Source: Salegentibacter lacus
GTDB taxonomy: Bacteria; Bacteroidota; Bacteroidia; Flavobacteriales; Flavobacteriaceae
DNA length: 49,933 nt
Assembly: GCF_020164555.1 (NCBI RefSeq)
Contig: NZ_JAIQZB010000024.1
Span: 1-49,933 of the forward strand
Direction: 5' to 3'
The notes beneath the pieces were generated by a model. The model saw only the letters and a program-made list of their open reading frames with translations, was not told the origin of the DNA and did not search any database. Both the position numbers and the translations under genes were made by a program. Shown one piece after another: positions 6,335 to 39,964 of this stretch. Each line of letters opens with the position of its first letter. Position 1 is the stretch's first letter.

Positions 6335-8650
6335 ATGCTGAAAAATATACCTCGCTTTTTCTCACTTATTTTTATTGCCATTGCCGTTTGGTTCAGTTTT
6401 TACAGCAGCCAGCCAAAAACTATTGAAGACGAAGGCGCGGCTGAAACTACTTTTTCTACCCAACGCGCTTTTAACCACGTTGAAGCAATTGCACAAAAAC
6501 CACATTATGTGGGGACTGAAGCGCATAGCAGGGTAAGAAATTATATTGTTGGTGAGCTGCAAAAAATGGGTTTACAGGCTCAAACCCACGAAGATTACAG
6601 CCTTACCAAAAATGGAAATTTAGTTCGCCCTCAAAATATTTTAGCCCGTTTAGAAGGAAATGGAAACGGAGAAGCCCTTGTAATTATGACACATTACGAC
6701 AGCAATCCACATTCGTCTTTGGGTGCTAGTGACGCGGGCAGCGGTGTAGGGACTATTTTAGAAGGAATTCGTGCTTTTTTAGCTGACAATAAAGAGCACC
6801 AGAACGATATAATCATCTTATTTACCGATGCCGAAGAACTTGGTTTAAACGGCGCAGAGCTATTTATAAAAGGCCATCCCTGGGCAAAGGACACAAAACT
6901 TGCGCTAAATTTTGAAGCCCTTGGCAGCGACGGCGATTCGTTTATGTTTTTGGAAACAAATTCCGGAAACGCTGGACTCATCAATTCATTTAAAGAAGCA
7001 AATCCTGAATTTCCTGTTACAAATTCGCTCGTTTACAGCGTTTATAAAATGCTACCCAATGATACCGATCTTACCGTTTTACGCGAACAGGGCGATATTC
7101 CCGGTTATAATTTTGCGTTTATAGACGATCATTTTGATTACCACACAGCCACGGACACCCCAGAGAATTTAGATAAACAAACCCTTGCGCATCAGGGCAG
7201 TTATTTAATGCCGTTGCTTGATTATTTTAAGGATGCCGATTTAAGCGAAGCTAAAGCCGAAGAAGAAGTATTGTTTTTTAATATTCCCGGCGGGGAAATT
7301 ATTAGCTATCCCTTTTCCTGGATTTTCCCGATGCTTATCATTGCTTTTATATTATTTTTTATAATTCTGGGCTACGGATTTACACAAAACCGGCTTCAAC
7401 TCAAGCCAATTTTAAAAAGCATTATTCCGTTCACAGTTAGCTTAGCCTTTTCCGGCATATTGGTTTTTCTACTTTGGAAATTCCTTCTTTTCAGCTACGC
7501 CGAATATTCAGAAATGGAACAGGGTTTCATCTATAACGGCTACTATTACATCGCTGCATTTATTGCACTAAGTTTATTAATTGTTTTTTTTACTTATTAT
7601 CGTTTTAGACATATAGAAAATAAGGCTAACCTGTTCGTAGTGCCGTTATTTTTCTGGTTGTTGCTTTGCACGATACTATCGTTTTTCTTAAAAGGTGCGG
7701 CCTATTTTATTATTCCGGCCTTTTTTGCGCTACTGCAGCTTTTTGTAATGATAAGGCAGGAAAATCCAAATACTCTGCTAATGGCATTTTTAAGCCTTCC
7801 GGCGGTCTTTATTTTAGTGCCATTTATAAAGATGTTTCCGGTAGCTTTAGGCTTAAAAATATTGTTTGTTTCAGCTTTACTTACCGTTTTATTATTTCAA
7901 CTGCTATTACCTGTTTTTGCTTATTTTAAAAGCAATAAAAAAATCGCGGTATTCTTCTTTCTAATTTTCAATATCCTTTTAATTACCGCCCATTTTAAAG
8001 CTGATTTCACGGAAGAACACCCGAAACCAAATTCACTTGTGTATCTTTTTGATGCCGATAAAAATACTACCAATTGGTATTCTTACGATAATATGGTTGA
8101 TGACTGGACCGAAGCATATTTTGGTGAAGAACCGCTTATTGCACCTTCGGAAATTAACACTCTTAGCAGCAAGTATGGATCAAAGTTTACCTGGAAAACC
8201 AATGCTCCGGAAATCGATTTAAAAGCCCCCTCTATTATTTGGAAGAAAACAGATTCTTCTGAAACTGTAAATTCCTATCTTCTAAAGATCGCGCCAAACC
8301 GGAATATTAACCGAATTGAACTTTTTGCCGACCGGGGAACCGATTTTGAAACTTTTAAAGTCAATGATAAAACAGCTGACAGCGTGTATCTTGGACAGGA
8401 TAAATTTCACATTCACACCCGCCGTTGGCACGAAAGATTACTAACTTATCACGCCTCTAGCAGGGATACGCTCAGATTGGAATTTAGTTTGAAAAGTGAT
8501 AAAAAACCAGAATTCACCATTTATGAGTCAAGTTATGATTTACTGGAAAATGAGGCCTTAAATGTGCCGTCAAGACCTGAAACAATGATTCCGCGACCTT
8601 TTGTACTAAATGATGCTGTAATATTTAAGAAAACCATAAGCCCCGAGTAG
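6335..8650 (+). CDS. M28-family membrane metallopeptidase
   Basis: 771 residues. One N-terminal transmembrane segment (about 9-25) anchors a periplasmic M28 aminopeptidase domain with all five predicted ligands of the two-zinc site: H120 (THYDSNP), D133 (SDAGSG), E168 (DAEELG, with E167 as catalytic base), E194 (NFEALG) and H270 (DYHTATDTPEN). After residue 325 come about eight hydrophobic segments to about 560, then a soluble beta-rich C-terminal domain (about 570-771). The layout resembles ER metallopeptidase 1/vacuolar Pff1-like M28 proteins. It likely trims N-terminal residues of peptides at the inner membrane. Single gene; the dispersed repeat follows it. Confidence 0.88.
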   Translation: MLKNIPRFFSLIFIAIAVWFSFYSSQPKTIEDEGAAETTFSTQRAFNHVEAIAQKPHYVGTEAHSRVRNYIVGELQKMGLQAQTHEDYSLTKNGNLVRPQNILARLEGNGNGEALVIMTHYDSNPHSSLGASDAGSGVGTILEGIRAFLADNKEHQNDIIILFTDAEELGLNGAELFIKGHPWAKDTKLALNFEALGSDGDSFMFLETNSGNAGLINSFKEANPEFPVTNSLVYSVYKMLPNDTDLTVLREQGDIPGYNFAFIDDHFDYHTATDTPENLDKQTLAHQGSYLMPLLDYFKDADLSEAKAEEEVLFFNIPGGEIISYPFSWIFPMLIIAFILFFIILGYGFTQNRLQLKPILKSIIPFTVSLAFSGILVFLLWKFLLFSYAEYSEMEQGFIYNGYYYIAAFIALSLLIVFFTYYRFRHIENKANLFVVPLFFWLLLCTILSFFLKGAAYFIIPAFFALLQLFVMIRQENPNTLLMAFLSLPAVFILVPFIKMFPVALGLKILFVSALLTVLLFQLLLPVFAYFKSNKKIAVFFFLIFNILLITAHFKADFTEEHPKPNSLVYLFDADKNTTNWYSYDNMVDDWTEAYFGEEPLIAPSEINTLSSKYGSKFTWKTNAPEIDLKAPSIIWKKTDSSETVNSYLLKIAPNRNINRIELFADRGTDFETFKVNDKTADSVYLGQDKFHIHTRRWHERLLTYHASSRDTLRLEFSLKSDKKPEFTIYESSYDLLENEALNVPSRPETMIPRPFVLNDAVIFKKTISPE

Positions 8651-8681: not shown

Positions 8682-8761
8682 CGTCATCCTGAACTTGTTT
8701 CAGGATCTAACTTGATAAAAAATGCTCTCATATTAGAAGCTGAAACAAGTTCAGCTTGACG
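8682..8761. repeat. Dispersed palindromic element, complete copy
   Basis: This is the best-preserved intergenic copy. The left arm is CGTCATCCTGAACTTG followed by TTTCAGGATCTAA. The right arm is AGAAGCTGAAACAAGTTC followed by AGCTTGACG. Each arm is a hairpin, and the outer ends CGTCA/TGACG are inverted. It fills most of the gap between the M28 peptidase and the SDR gene. Confidence 0.8.
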
Positions 8762-10565: not shown

Positions 10566-13500
10566 TTAGGAAGCTTTTTCGACTTCTTCTTCCCTCACCC
10601 TAAAATCCAGGGGCTGCAAAACTTTTAAAGCGCTTTCTATCGAATTAATCTTTTCAAAAGTTAAAAGCAAACGCAAACCATTCCTGGTTTTCTTCTCTTT
10701 CATTGTACATTTATGCTTATGCGTTTGTACATATTGCAGCACTTTGGTAAACGTATTGGTTTGGTAAAACCTGGATTGCTGATCGGAAATAAAATAGCCT
10801 ATCAATTTACCTTGTTTTAATATGATCTTTTCAAGACCTATACTCGCCGCGATCCATTTTATACGTACACTATTTAGCAAATCTACCGCCTGGGTTGGTA
10901 ATTCTCCAAAACGGTCTACAAGCTCTGCTTCAAACTTTTGCAATTCTTCTTCTGAAGTAATTTTATTTAACTGTGTATATAAATTCAGCCTTTCAGTAAT
11001 ATTATTGATATAATCATCGGGGAAAAGAATTTCAAAATCGGTATCGATCTGCGCATCTTTTACAAAGGTTTTATCCTCTATATTTTCAGATTCATTATAA
11101 AGCTCCTGAAATTCATTTTCCTTTAATTCCTCAATTGCTTCATTTAGGATCTTTTGATAAGTATCAAAACCTATTTCATTGATAAATCCGCTTTGTTCAC
11201 CACCCAGTAAATCCCCGGCACCACGAATTTCCAGATCTTTCATTGCGATATTTATTCCGCTTCCTAATTCAGAAAACTGCTCTAAAGCGCTAATTCGTTT
11301 ACGCGCATCTTCGGTCATTACAGAATATGGCGGCGTTATAAAGTAACAGAAAGCTTTTTTGTTGCTTCGGCCTACTCTACCTCGCATCTGGTGAAGATCT
11401 GAAACCCCAAAATTATTCGCATTATTAATGAAAATAGTGTTCGCATTGGTAACATCAAGTCCGCTTTCCACGATTGTTGTTGAAACCAGAACATCAAACT
11501 CGCCATTTATAAAACTCAGCATCAGTTTTTCCAGCTTCTTACCTTCCATTTGCCCGTGACCTATACCAATTTTGGCATCTGGAACAACACGCTGAATCAT
11601 CCCCGCGACTTCTTTAATGTTTTCAATCCGATTATGAATAAAGAAAACCTGCCCACCACGCTGAATTTCATAGGACACCGCATCCCGTATTGTTTCTTCG
11701 GAAAAACGAATTACGTTGGTTTCTATAGGGTACCTATTTGGTGGCGGTGTAGTAATGGTAGATAAGTCTCGCGCGGCCATTAAACTAAACTGAAGCGTTC
11801 TTGGAATAGGCGTTGCCGTTAATGTAAGTGTATCTACATTTTCCTTGATAGTTTTCAGTTTATCCTTTACCGAAACTCCAAATTTTTGCTCTTCATCTAC
11901 GATCAGTAATCCAAGATCTTTAAATTTCACCGCTTTATTAACCAATTGGTGCGTACCAATCACAATATCAACTTTTCCATTCTCCAGATCGGCTAAGGTT
12001 TCACGGCGTTCTTTAGCGGTTCTAAACCTATTTAAATAATCTACTGTTACCGGGAAATCTTTTAAACGTTCAGTGAAAGTTTCATGATGTTGAAACGCCA
12101 AAATAGTGGTTGGCACTAGAACAGCAACCTGCTTGCCGTTATCTACCGCTTTAAAAGCTGCCCGAATAGCAACCTCTGTTTTTCCGAAACCGACATCACC
12201 ACAAACCAACCTATCCATAGGGCGCTCGTTCTCCATATCTTCTTTTACCGCCTGGGTCGCGGTACTTTGATCTGGCGTGTCTTCATACATAAAAGAGGCT
12301 TCCAACTCGTGTTGCAAGTAAGAATCTGGGCCAAAGGCAAAACCCTTTTGTAAGCGACGTTTTGCGTAAAGTTCAATTAAATTATAGGCAATATGCTTAA
12401 CCCGGGCCTTGGTTTTTTGCTTTAATTTCTTCCAGGCGTTGCTTCCCAATTTAAAGATCTTGGGCTCCTTGCCATCTTTCCCGTTATATTTTGAAATTTT
12501 ATGAAGCGAATGTATGCTGACATATAGAATATCTCGCTCGCCGTAGAAAAGCTTAATGGCTTCCTGCTTTTTTCCTTCAACATCAATTTTCTGAAGTCCG
12601 CCAAATTTCCCTATTCCGTGGTCAATATGTGTTACATAATCGCCAACTTCAAGATTACCGAGTTCCTTAAGCGTAATTGCCTGTTTTTTAGCATAACCAT
12701 TCTTAAGATGAAACTTATGATAACGCTCAAAGATCTGGTGATCGGTATAGCAAATATTTTTCCCGGTTTCATCTATAAAGCCCTGGAAAAGAGCTAAAGT
12801 TATCGTTTGGTATTTTACTTTTTGTTCCTGATCGTCAAAAATATCGTGAAAACGTTTGGCTTGCTGTTCGCTAACACAGAAAATATAATTGGTATACCCA
12901 TTTTCCTGATTTTCAATTAAGTTATCAATCAGTAAATCGAATTGCTTATTGAAGGAAGGCTGGGGTTTTGTTTGAAATTCTATACTTTTTACCCCGCCGT
13001 CACCCTGAACTTGTTTCAGGGTCTCATTCGACTTAGATCCTGAAATAAATTCAGGATGACGAAAGTAAGATTGGTTGCTCAGTTCAACAACTGAAAAAAG
13101 CTCCAGCTGACTTTTAATTAACTGCCCATTACAAAACAGTTCATTTGGTTCACTGTGTTTTACTTCTTCTGAAAGTTTCTGAAAAGCTTCTTCTGCTTTA
13201 CTGAAAAGTTTATCGGCCTGGGCTGTAAGTAAATCGAGATTTTTCACAAAAACCACCGTTTTTTCTGAAATATATCTTAGAAAACTTTCCCTTATTTCGT
13301 CCAGGTGCTTGTTTTCCACATTCGGCATCACCGAAATTTTCTTCACTTTATCTGTAGAAAGCTGGGTTTCCACATCAAAACTCCGAATGCTGTCTACTTC
13401 ATCGCCAAAAAACTCGATACGGTAAGGCTCATCGTTACTAAAGGAAAAAACATCTATAATTCCGCCACGCACTGAAAATTCGCCCGGTTCGGTTACAAAA

Positions 13501-14015
13501 TCTACCCGTTTAAATTTATATTCGAATAAAACCTCGTTCACAAAATCTATAGAAAGTTCATCTTCCACCGAAATTTTTAGCGTGCTTCTATCCAGTTCTT
13601 TTCGGGTAACTACTTTTTCAAAAAGAGCATCGGGATAGGTAACAATTATCGCCGGTTTTTTGCGCGAGTTGATTCGGTTTAAAACTTCGGCCCGTAATAA
13701 CACATTTGCATTATCTGTTTCCTCAATTTGGTATGGACGGCGGTAACTGCCTGGATAAAAAAGCACATTTTTTTCTCCTACCAGTTGCTCGAGATCGTTT
13801 AAATAATAAGCAGCTTCCTCTTTATCGTTAAAAATCAGTAAAAAGGGTTTTTCTGCTTCTTTAAAAGCATTGGCTACAACAAAAGAAAAGGCAGAACCAA
13901 CAAGTCCTTTTAGTTGAATTTTAGTGCGATTTTTTTCAGAAGAGACAAGGGAATCCTGCAATTCCTGCTGTTGCGGGGATTGTGCAAAGCTTTGGGCGAT
14001 AATAGTTTTACTCAT
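10566..14015 (-). CDS. mfd: Transcription-repair coupling factor Mfd
   Basis: Large ATP-dependent translocase that removes stalled RNA polymerase and recruits UvrA for transcription-coupled repair. About 1149 residues from ATG 14015, the usual length. Visible parts: N-terminal UvrB-homology region; the RNA-polymerase interaction domain (GDYVTHIDHGIGKFGG); Walker A GDVGFGKTE near residue 607; DEEQ near 705; the TATPIPRTL motif; the helicase C motif with MRGRVGRS; and the C-terminal TRCF domain. The longer TTG start at 14051 is rejected because that TTG is the -33 element of a promoter whose -7 box is 5 nt before the ATG. Odd: residues about 319-339 come from a dispersed palindromic repeat inserted in frame. 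Confidence 0.97.
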   Translation of the reverse strand: MSKTIIAQSFAQSPQQQELQDSLVSSEKNRTKIQLKGLVGSAFSFVVANAFKEAEKPFLLIFNDKEEAAYYLNDLEQLVGEKNVLFYPGSYRRPYQIEETDNANVLLRAEVLNRINSRKKPAIIVTYPDALFEKVVTRKELDRSTLKISVEDELSIDFVNEVLFEYKFKRVDFVTEPGEFSVRGGIIDVFSFSNDEPYRIEFFGDEVDSIRSFDVETQLSTDKVKKISVMPNVENKHLDEIRESFLRYISEKTVVFVKNLDLLTAQADKLFSKAEEAFQKLSEEVKHSEPNELFCNGQLIKSQLELFSVVELSNQSYFRHPEFISGSKSNETLKQVQGDGGVKSIEFQTKPQPSFNKQFDLLIDNLIENQENGYTNYIFCVSEQQAKRFHDIFDDQEQKVKYQTITLALFQGFIDETGKNICYTDHQIFERYHKFHLKNGYAKKQAITLKELGNLEVGDYVTHIDHGIGKFGGLQKIDVEGKKQEAIKLFYGERDILYVSIHSLHKISKYNGKDGKEPKIFKLGSNAWKKLKQKTKARVKHIAYNLIELYAKRRLQKGFAFGPDSYLQHELEASFMYEDTPDQSTATQAVKEDMENERPMDRLVCGDVGFGKTEVAIRAAFKAVDNGKQVAVLVPTTILAFQHHETFTERLKDFPVTVDYLNRFRTAKERRETLADLENGKVDIVIGTHQLVNKAVKFKDLGLLIVDEEQKFGVSVKDKLKTIKENVDTLTLTATPIPRTLQFSLMAARDLSTITTPPPNRYPIETNVIRFSEETIRDAVSYEIQRGGQVFFIHNRIENIKEVAGMIQRVVPDAKIGIGHGQMEGKKLEKLMLSFINGEFDVLVSTTIVESGLDVTNANTIFINNANNFGVSDLHQMRGRVGRSNKKAFCYFITPPYSVMTEDARKRISALEQFSELGSGINIAMKDLEIRGAGDLLGGEQSGFINEIGFDTYQKILNEAIEELKENEFQELYNESENIEDKTFVKDAQIDTDFEILFPDDYINNITERLNLYTQLNKITSEEELQKFEAELVDRFGELPTQAVDLLNSVRIKWIAASIGLEKIILKQGKLIGYFISDQQSRFYQTNTFTKVLQYVQTHKHKCTMKEKKTRNGLRLLLTFEKINSIESALKVLQPLDFRVREEEVEKAS
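12998..13061. repeat. Dispersed palindromic element inside the mfd coding sequence
   Basis: A 64-bp copy begins CGTCACCCTGAACTTG, then TTTCAGGGTCT, and ends AGATCCTGAAATAAATTC, then AGGATGACG. Translated within Mfd it gives RHPEFISGSKSNETLKQVQG. Both hairpin arms are intact, and the reading frame stays open through the element. Confidence 0.85.
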
Positions 14016-37455: not shown

Positions 37456-38346
37456 ATGAAAAAATTAATACTTGCTTTCGTCCTATTTGGCGGAATTTTT
37501 AATTTATCGGCTCAGGAAGAGGAAGAAGAACAAAAACAAGGATGGACTAAAGAAGGAAACATTTCCTTGCTTTTTAATCAATCGGCCTTTAACGAAGAAT
37601 GGACTGGCGGGGGGACTTCAAACCTTGCAGGGAATTTACTTTTTGATTATAATTTCAATTATCTAAAAGACGATTTTACCTGGGACAATAGGTTGCTTTT
37701 GGACTATGGAATCACCAAGCAACGTAGTGATGAGTTTGCAAGAAAAACAAGTGACCGTTTAGAACTTAACTCAATCGCAGGGAAGCAAGTACAGGACTCC
37801 AACTGGTATTATTCACTTTTTCTTAATTTTAGAACACAAATTACCAAAGGTTATAAATTTGGTGAAGACGAAACCGGAGAAACTACCCGAACAGAATATA
37901 CTAACTTTTTATCACCCGCCTACCTTCAGTTTGGCCCCGGGATGATGTGGAAAAAAAGTGAAAATTTCTATGTAAATATTGCACCGGCTACCGGTAGAAT
38001 GGTTTTTGTTGATAAAGATTTCACTTCGGGGCCAGATTATACAGATGGCGATTATTTTGGAGTAGATGCTAATAAAGCGATGCGTTTTGAATTTGGCGCC
38101 TCGGTTTCTGGATACGCTAAATTTGATGTTATTGAAAATGTAACGATGGAAAATCTACTTAACTTATATTCCAATTACCTCGAAGACCCGCAGAACGTAG
38201 ATATCGATTATACCATGAACATGAAAATGAAGATTAACGATTACCTTTCTACAAATCTTATTTTTCAGGCTATTTATGATGATAATGCTGTAAAAGGCTT
38301 CCAAATCAGGGAGGTTTTCGGTTTAGGATTTAACTATGGATTTTAA
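37456..38346 (+). CDS. DUF3078 secreted outer-membrane beta-barrel-like protein
   Basis: 296 residues. Signal peptide MKKLILAFVLFGGIFNLSAQ. The mature part is rich in aromatic-ending strands (WTKEGNISLLFNQSAFNEEWTGGGTSNLAGNLLFDYNF; LLLDYGITKQRSDEF) and ends VFGLGFNYGF, a C-terminal Phe as in outer-membrane barrels. The pattern is that of DUF3078. Often adjacent to suf/DUF2480 genes in flavobacteria, but no functional link is known. The 96-bp gap before it shows no -7 box, so it may be transcribed with suf. The terminator at 38463 follows. Confidence 0.82.
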   Translation: MKKLILAFVLFGGIFNLSAQEEEEEQKQGWTKEGNISLLFNQSAFNEEWTGGGTSNLAGNLLFDYNFNYLKDDFTWDNRLLLDYGITKQRSDEFARKTSDRLELNSIAGKQVQDSNWYYSLFLNFRTQITKGYKFGEDETGETTRTEYTNFLSPAYLQFGPGMMWKKSENFYVNIAPATGRMVFVDKDFTSGPDYTDGDYFGVDANKAMRFEFGASVSGYAKFDVIENVTMENLLNLYSNYLEDPQNVDIDYTMNMKMKINDYLSTNLIFQAIYDDNAVKGFQIREVFGLGFNYGF

Positions 38347-38372: not shown

Positions 38373-38444
38373 CGTCAAGCTGAACTCGTTTCAGCATCTA
38401 TCCTGATCTGGAAACTACTTAGACGCTGAAATAAACAGCGTGAC
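38373..38444. repeat. Dispersed palindromic element copy
   Basis: Left arm CGTCAAGCTGAACTCG, then TTTCAGC; right arm GACGCTGAAATAAACAGCGTGAC. Same layout as the element at 8682-8761, with compensated stem changes (AGCTGAA/TTCAGC; GCTG/CAGC), which suggests that the hairpins are kept. Confidence 0.7.
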
Positions 38445-38462
38445 TGTAAACAAACTAAAAAC

Positions 38463-38490: not shown

Positions 38491-38561
38491 TTTTATTAGA
38501 TTTTTTAGTTAAATATATGTTGAAATAATTTCCGCAAAAATCGCAGTAGCAATCTATTGTG

Positions 38562-38569
38562 TAACTTTG
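38562..38569 (+). promoter_or_regulatory. hflX -7 box TAACTTTG, 5 nt before the ATG
   Basis: Exact TAnnTTTG match ending 5 nt before the ATG at 38575, the same geometry as at mfd. It predicts a near-leaderless mRNA and makes the in-frame TTG at 38557 unusable. No clear -33 TTG. Confidence 0.6.
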
Positions 38570-38574
38570 TATTT

Positions 38575-39795
38575 ATGATTGAAAAAACCGACCTAACCCA
38601 CGAAAAAGCTGTTCTAATTGGTATTGTAACCAAAGAACAGGGGCACGATAAATTAAAAGAATATCTGGACGAATTAGAGTTCCTAACCTATACCGCCGGC
38701 GGGGAAGTGATTAAGCGTTTCAGCCAGAATATGGACAAGCCCAACCCCAAAACATTTATTGGGACAGGGAAAATGAATGAATTAAAAGAATTCGTTGATG
38801 AAAATGATGTAGGTACCGCTATTTTTGATGATGAACTTTCTCCTGCACAGCAAAAGAATATTGAAAAAATCTTAAAGTGTAAAGTATTAGATAGAACTAC
38901 GCTTATTCTCGATATTTTTGCCCAACGGGCACAAACCAGCTACGCGAGGACACAGGTAGAACTGGCACAATATGAATATTTACTACCAAGACTTGCCGGT
39001 ATGTGGACTCACCTTGAACGCCAGCGTGGTGGTATTGGAATGCGTGGACCCGGGGAAACAGAAATAGAGACTGACCGTAGGATTGTTCGGGATAAAATTG
39101 CGCTTTTAAAAAAGAAACTGGAAACTATAGACAAGCAAATGGAAGTGCAACGCGGTAACCGCGGTCAATTGGTTAGGGTGGCATTAGTAGGTTACACAAA
39201 CGTTGGAAAATCTACCTTAATGAATACCATTAGCAAGAGTGAGGTTTTTGCAGAAAATAAGCTTTTCGCAACTTTAGATACTACGGTAAGAAAAGTCGTG
39301 ATTCGCAATTTACCATTCCTTTTAACGGATACGGTTGGGTTTATAAGGAAACTTCCCACGCAACTGGTAGAGTCTTTTAAATCGACCTTAGATGAAGTTA
39401 GGGAATCCGATTTGTTACTGCACGTAGTAGATATTTCACATCCCAATTTTGAAGATCATATAGAGTCTGTTAACCAGATCATGAGCGAGATTAAGAGTAA
39501 TGACAAACCAACCATTATGGTTTTTAATAAGATCGATCAATATGAAGCTGAAGAAATTGAAGAGGACGATTTAATTACTGAAAAAACGAAGGAGCATTAC
39601 ACACTTAAAGAATGGAAGCAAACCTGGATGAACAAAATGGGCGATAATGTCTTGTTTATTTCAGCTTTGAACAATGAGAATATGGAGGATTTCCGCAGAA
39701 AAGTTTATGAAGCGGTTCGTAAAATCCATATTACCCGTTTCCCTTATAATAATTTTCTCTATCCGGAATATGATAAATATGGAGAGGAAAAATAG
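38575..39795 (+). CDS. hflX: Ribosome-associated GTPase HflX
   Basis: 406 residues. The HflX N-terminal domain (FIGTGKMNELKEFV, then DRTTLILDIFAQRAQTSYARTQVELAQYEYLLPRL) leads through a glycine-rich RGGIGMRGPGETEIETDRR linker and coiled coil to the G domain: G1 GYTNVGKST, G2 ATLDTT, G3 DTVGFI, G4 NKID and a G5-like ISALN. HflX splits stalled or heat-damaged ribosomes. The insert EAEEIEEDDLITEKTKEH after G4 is acidic. The ATG at 38575 is chosen because a TAnnTTTG box ends 5 nt before it. Confidence 0.95.
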   Translation: MIEKTDLTHEKAVLIGIVTKEQGHDKLKEYLDELEFLTYTAGGEVIKRFSQNMDKPNPKTFIGTGKMNELKEFVDENDVGTAIFDDELSPAQQKNIEKILKCKVLDRTTLILDIFAQRAQTSYARTQVELAQYEYLLPRLAGMWTHLERQRGGIGMRGPGETEIETDRRIVRDKIALLKKKLETIDKQMEVQRGNRGQLVRVALVGYTNVGKSTLMNTISKSEVFAENKLFATLDTTVRKVVIRNLPFLLTDTVGFIRKLPTQLVESFKSTLDEVRESDLLLHVVDISHPNFEDHIESVNQIMSEIKSNDKPTIMVFNKIDQYEAEEIEEDDLITEKTKEHYTLKEWKQTWMNKMGDNVLFISALNNENMEDFRRKVYEAVRKIHITRFPYNNFLYPEYDKYGEEK

Positions 39796-39817: not shown

Positions 39818-39897
39818 CGTCAAGCTGAACGGGTTTCAGCTTCTAATATGATTTCAATATCTAAAACCTTAGACCCTGAAATAAATTCAGGGTTACG
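39818..39897. repeat. Dispersed palindromic element, complete copy
   Basis: Left arm CGTCAAGCTGAACGGG, then TTTCAGCTTCTAA; right arm AGACCCTGAAATAAATTC, then AGGGTTACG. The right arm closely matches the one inside mfd. It sits between hflX and a secreted-protein gene. Confidence 0.8.
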
Positions 39898-39964
39898 ACT
39901 TAAAATCTTCTAAAAAATTATATGTTTTTTTTAGTAAATTAGAGTAGACCAATAACTTACTACA

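Follow-up and report, generated by a model that had tools for sequence, protein, structure and literature searches.

A CGTC-tagged palindromic repeat read in frame within mfd of Salegentibacter lacus, and repeat arms in the same Mfd loop of other Flavobacteriaceae

The repeat within mfd and its copies in the window genome

The window analyzed here is a 49,933-nucleotide stretch of Salegentibacter lacus (contig NZ_JAIQZB010000024.1, positions 1 to 49,933), in which the gene for the transcription-repair coupling factor Mfd contains a short palindromic element. The features of interest are as follows.

10566-14015, minus strand: mfd, transcription-repair coupling factor, 1149 aa
12998-13061, minus strand: 64-bp CGTC-tagged palindromic repeat pair inside mfd, the central feature
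12998-13022, plus strand: unit 1, a CGTC tag, an 8-bp stem (ACCCTGAA/TTCAGGGT, pairing 8/8) and a 5-nt loop
13037-13061, minus strand: unit 2, a CGTC tag, an 8-bp stem (ATCCTGAA/TTCAGGAT, pairing 8/8) and a 5-nt loop
12999-13061, minus strand: codons supplied by the repeat, Mfd residues 319-339 (RHPEFISGSKSNETLKQVQGD)
143-218, no strand assigned: intergenic relative of the repeat with one degenerate arm
8682-8761, no strand assigned: intergenic copy, 31 bp past the stop of the ORF at 6335-8650
38373-38446, no strand assigned: intergenic copy, 26 bp past the stop of the ORF at 37456-38346
39818-39898, no strand assigned: intergenic copy, 22 bp past the stop of the ORF at 38557-39795

The 64-bp element is an inverted pair of units, each starting with CGTC on its own strand, and folds as a long hairpin; the complement of unit 1 is the right unit along the reading direction of mfd. 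The minus-strand frame is open through the repeat with no stop, giving the peptide RHPEFISGSKSNETLKQVQGDGG (Mfd residues 319-341), in which GG directly follows RHPEFISGSKSNETLKQVQGD. An earlier reading made from the letters alone (the sequence-only reading) had proposed a repeat copy within the Mfd coding sequence that is read through and adds roughly 21 residues near 320-340, and it was right both on what the element is and on how it alters the coding sequence: the hairpin-forming copy lies at 12998-13061 and residues 319-339 correspond to a net gain of 21 in alignments. It placed the insert in the linker region ahead of the polymerase-interaction domain; more exactly, the site is the loop that joins domains 1b and 3, some 115 residues ahead of the RID domain (455-510). 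Structural modeling, which it had suggested for deciding whether the segment is a surface loop, returns a low-confidence loop (pLDDT <50).

The same element had been said to lie between genes elsewhere, and the window indeed contains four intergenic relatives, one of them degenerate. Those at 8682-8761, 38373-38446 and 39818-39898 stand 22-31 bp past stop codons between co-directional genes, and PMC3733652 (Di Nocera, De Gregorio and Rocco 2013) describes REPs placed in this way. The repeat is far beyond chance in the 4.05-Mb window genome: a one-arm pattern with at most one mismatch has 156 matches, and the reversed pattern has none. Placement covered the 98 exact arms, the other 58 having one mismatch; most exact arms are single, and together they form 79 sites. 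Taking ORFs of at least 120 aa, and counting as inside only what is over 45 nt away from both ends, 76 sites are intergenic, two are at ORF ends (one close to the end, one overlapping it) and one is inside a gene. That gene is mfd, the only one with a copy well inside, which favors the neutral capture considered below. There are 16 distinct exact inverted pairs in the genome and, with the first seven bases of each treated as generic, no pair but that of mfd is open in any of the six frames. The usual TTAGA puts a stop, TAG, in the mfd frame, and the mfd copies examined in this frame have GAG, CAG, GTG or AAG there, as judged by eye.

The main text of PMC3733652 describes CGTC-tagged REPs without a dedicated transposase that are predominantly paired as inverted (HH) dimers, with a stem of 8-9 bp, a loop of 4-5 nt, almost invariable A-T complementarity at the first two stem positions and a 3-nt unpaired tail fitting CCA in most cases, though not all; Bacteroidetes are among the phyla listed as having such repeats. 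The window element resembles these in its tag, 8-bp stem, 5-nt loop, paired units and mostly intergenic location; over the whole genome, 16 distinct exact pairs stand beside a majority of single arms. It has A and T at the first two stem positions of unit 2 and A then C in unit 1. Its units finish CTAA or CTCA after the stem, not CCA. As with the published repeats, no transposase was found beside the copies, as judged from Y1_Tnp and RAYT loci. The sole Y1_Tnp match in the window genome (G000:C35:38297-38527, L001) is a degenerate transposase remnant with three stops, and no arm of the mfd repeat is present in the 3.2-kb locus around it. RAYT-associated GTAG REPs share short, often paired palindromic units with the window element, but carry a tag other than CGTC, and none of 30 RAYT loci from the family (1.8-3.4 kb each) holds a window repeat arm.

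The sequence-only reading also drew a comparison with the palindromic elements (RPEs) of Rickettsia, and this is apt: PMC3733652 equates RPE-4 and RPE-6 of R. conorii with CGTC repeat families, and by its sequence features the window element fits the class that includes them. Both are palindromic repeats lying in frame inside genes. The host phylum differs, and so does the count within genes: the window genome has one gene with an internal exact copy, and of the genomes in that survey R. conorii has the most intragenic CGTC repeats.

Distribution of the insert within Salegentibacter

We searched 15 Salegentibacter genomes and recovered full-length mfd from 14; G013, which is 61% complete, gave none. 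The insert is present in six of the 14 genes (G000, which is the window genome and the reference for codon comparisons, and G007, G014, G004, G008 and G012), and the loop in the other eight is 15 residues long. An assembly error is unlikely, since the insert is found in five genomes besides that of the window. The sequence-only reading had expected alignments to show a clean insertion. A net gain of 63 nt, or 21 residues, between conserved flanks and its absence from 8/14 genes agree with this, but the insertion is not clean: 64 bp cannot be divided evenly into codons, and it has taken the place of about 12 nt of the old loop. No clean target duplication was seen by eye at the Salegentibacter insert, and none of 15 recG loci, taken as a control, contains a class A arm (the class of the window repeat). 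The earlier description of the element as mobile is borne out as to its multicopy state and its insertion relative to close relatives; movement itself we infer.

Relative to the window insert, that of G012 is shorter and that of G008 is longer by a nested 24 nt. In G008 (locus L105) the mfd repeat itself encloses a second short palindrome, of which that genome has three exact copies, the one in mfd included; variants of it occur in 5/9 genomes searched. The spacer between the two units is common to the bearers with few changes, and the flanking codons are shared by most of them, G004 being different, so that the insert looks homologous among bearers. The bearers are nonetheless not a clade (AU p of 0.003 with the mfd tree excluding the insert, and 8e-6 with the recG tree), so one insertion passed down vertically, with neither exchange nor loss, does not agree with the trees. 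By local identity mfd is a mosaic: across ~180 nt upstream of the insert, for example, the G009 gene and that of the window hardly differ. The patchy distribution would most likely stem from interspecific exchange of mfd alleles. Exact arms number 10 to 55 per genome in the five other bearers, and 0, 0, 1, 1, 13, 14, 27 and 46 in the eight non-bearers.

The mfd gene stays in frame with the insert and the remainder of it changes mostly silently, with about nine to twelve silent changes per replacing one, except in G012. Silent and replacing changes relative to G000 number 2 and 7 in the insert of G008 (307 and 35 in the rest of mfd; Fisher p 7e-6), 2 and 3 in that of G004 (297 and 34; p 0.011) and 0 and 4 in that of G012 (439 and 127; p 0.003). 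The insert peptide thus looks weakly constrained in three of five comparisons, the more distant ones, as far as codon changes can indicate; this is not evident in the other two, as G014 has one silent and one replacing change (p 0.15) and G007 has no codon change (p 1.0). In the right unit all eight stem pairs are kept in four bearers, 6/8 in G004 and 5/8 in G008, and across the six bearers the left unit keeps 8, 8, 7, 8, 6 and 8 pairs. Given the replacing changes and the eroded stem pairs, neither peptide nor hairpin is strictly kept. The gene with its insert may remain functional, and the segment forms part of the predicted protein.

Repeat arms in the Mfd loop of other genera

We scanned the best 80 of 585 confirmed candidate Mfd loci, a sample that favors near relatives because only the best were kept (one of them, L039, has the same insert as Salegentibacter G012), with four pattern classes (A, B, C and D) at up to three mismatches. 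At least one arm lies in the linker in 24 of these best 80 loci, and the linkers contain 26 arms of four classes in 4,698 bp, compared with 5 in 266 kb in the rest of mfd, 1 in 528 kb in other ORFs and 47 in 88 kb of intergenic DNA; the reversed patterns gave none. The linker counts of B, C and D are biased upward, because linkers were the source of these patterns. Class A alone, which was known from the window's intergenic copies, is found 12 times in the linker, 29 times in intergenic DNA and not at all in the rest of mfd or in other ORFs of the same best 80 of 585 loci. The five arms of mfd outside the linker in these loci are confined to two further sites of variable length, near residues 25 and 400. 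Arms at such sites occur in Allomuricauda-type relatives (L070, L083 and L085 near 4073, L096 near 4079 and L090 near 5215).

For the sequence-only reading, a homologous segment of different DNA sequence in all orthologues from unrelated flavobacteria would have spoken against its view. Segments of different DNA do in part occur at this place in other genera, but many of them are palindromic repeat arms too. On an 81-row tree built without the linker, a minimum of 13 changes is required for the presence of any repeat and 17 for the class label (gains and losses together), with 27 rows labeled, L058 and L078 of them by eye. A relationship between classes B and C is possible; should A, B/C and D be unrelated, the minimum is three insertions, and the true number is probably higher.

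The other hosts vary in copy number, the reversed patterns of classes A-D giving none. Exact class A arms number 7 in the genome of L069, 5 in L034, 3 in L058, 2 each in L031, L086 and L089, 1 each in L033, L073 and L094, and 0 in L065 and L100. In L094 (G189) the single arm is the mfd copy, a possible fossil of a vanished family. Class B at up to one mismatch has 18 matches in L099, 3 each in L084, L085 and L090, and 1 each in L053 and L064, where the sole match is the mfd copy itself. Exact class C arms number 37 in L070, 25 in L068, 18 in L057 and 8 in L096, and class D at up to one mismatch has 8 matches in L078 and 3 in L077. By these counts class C, class B in L099 and, to a lesser degree, class D are repeats in their own hosts. 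The rarity of class A outside Salegentibacter, and of class B in most hosts, may mark them as relics, and these low numbers count partly against a simple multicopy reading.

Mfd is not the only gene entered in the family, as other ORFs also have arms. Class C sites lie well inside ORFs at 1/28 sites in G189, 2/24 in G186 (from 29 of its 30 arms) and 2/16 in G185, all Allomuricauda-type genomes, and class B does so in G191 at one of seven sites chosen from 18. In-frame arms in other genes were noted at L241, L252, L253, L268, L269 and L275, and the arm-bearing ORFs belong to the radical SAM/HemN, arginyl-tRNA synthetase, GSCFA (twice), methylmalonyl-CoA mutase and FGAR amidotransferase (PurL-like) families. 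Mfd is the most repeatedly entered gene among the loci and genomes examined.

Origin of the insert and the use of the loop

We favor neutral capture of a CGTC-tagged REP dimer in a length-tolerant linker of Mfd, with patchy allele exchange afterwards, at a probability of roughly 0.68; the repeat is multicopy, is an insertion relative to close relatives, and lies in frame in a loop of varying length. A short non-autonomous dimer would have entered mfd of a Salegentibacter ancestor, presumably by transposition and with replacement of about 12 nt of the old loop, and would have survived by virtue of a variant with one open frame and a linker that accepts extra residues, its later patchy spread or loss being due to exchange of mfd alleles between species. 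Many insertions, of which the tolerated ones were kept, and perhaps repeats landing in repeats, could have refilled the loop with different classes across the Flavobacteriaceae. Against this, several other genera have genomes in which the class that entered mfd has few copies, and its mobility there is conjectural. Tolerance alone may also not suffice, as tolerant loops should be common, yet the Mfd loop takes 26/32 coding matches in the best 80 of 585 loci.

A more far-reaching proposal, which we regard as less likely than not, is that the domain 1b-domain 3 loop is a true repeat-capture site in the Flavobacteriaceae, entered independently by unrelated families, even nested, through target preference or because altered linkers are favored; if so, a repair protein is being remodeled by successive selfish repeats. 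Taken separately, each of these two causes seems to us less probable still. With target preference, this stretch of mfd would be a favored DNA target of the mover and so be entered more than other tolerant loops, and it is an unlikely though not negligible explanation: linker arm density is about ten times that of intergenic DNA and far above that of other ORFs, the same place is used by four pattern classes, and a repeat is nested in a repeat in G008, but junctions differ between genera with no common target word or duplication by eye, and the density is inflated by the linker-derived patterns, class A alone giving the lower count above. An adaptive role, in which selection retains the inserted hairpin or peptide for its effect on the expression of mfd or the activity of its product, is improbable. 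It would explain why one loop of one repair protein has been filled again and again, and why the mfd copy is the only exact class A arm in G189 and the only class B match within one mismatch in the L053 and L064 genomes, and it is in keeping with the many replication and repair genes with REPs in PMC3733652; the peptide is however weakly constrained, with stems eroding in some species, 8/14 Salegentibacter do without it and the encoded peptides differ between classes. That an ordinary linker resembles a repeat by chance can be dismissed for practical purposes, since, although linker lengths vary freely from 14 to 42 residues and 15 linkers of at least 18 residues have no arm by scan in the best 80 of 585 loci (two of them, L058 and L078, resembling degenerate arms by eye), the window arms are exact members of a 156-arm family with reversed controls of 0, and copy counts rule out chance resemblance in the window.

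The element is of a known kind, palindromic repeats in genes being known already, and it is the recurrence in one loop that is unusual; the Mfd loop is an unusual landing place for palindromic repeats in coding DNA. PMC3733652 reports REPs inside genes, many of them for DNA synthesis and repair, and its authors found those in repair genes hard to see as fortuitous and speculated on an adaptive role. The word mfd is absent from its main text, and the sections consulted do not describe several repeat classes in one loop across genera; the closest parallel there is recB, in which two Xanthomonas species have different REPs at nearly the same position. Relatives whose loops hold different repeat classes form a natural series in which neutral, targeted and useful insertions might be told apart, and flavobacterial Mfd, with the insert present in some close relatives and missing from others, makes the question raised in PMC3733652 about REPs in repair genes testable.
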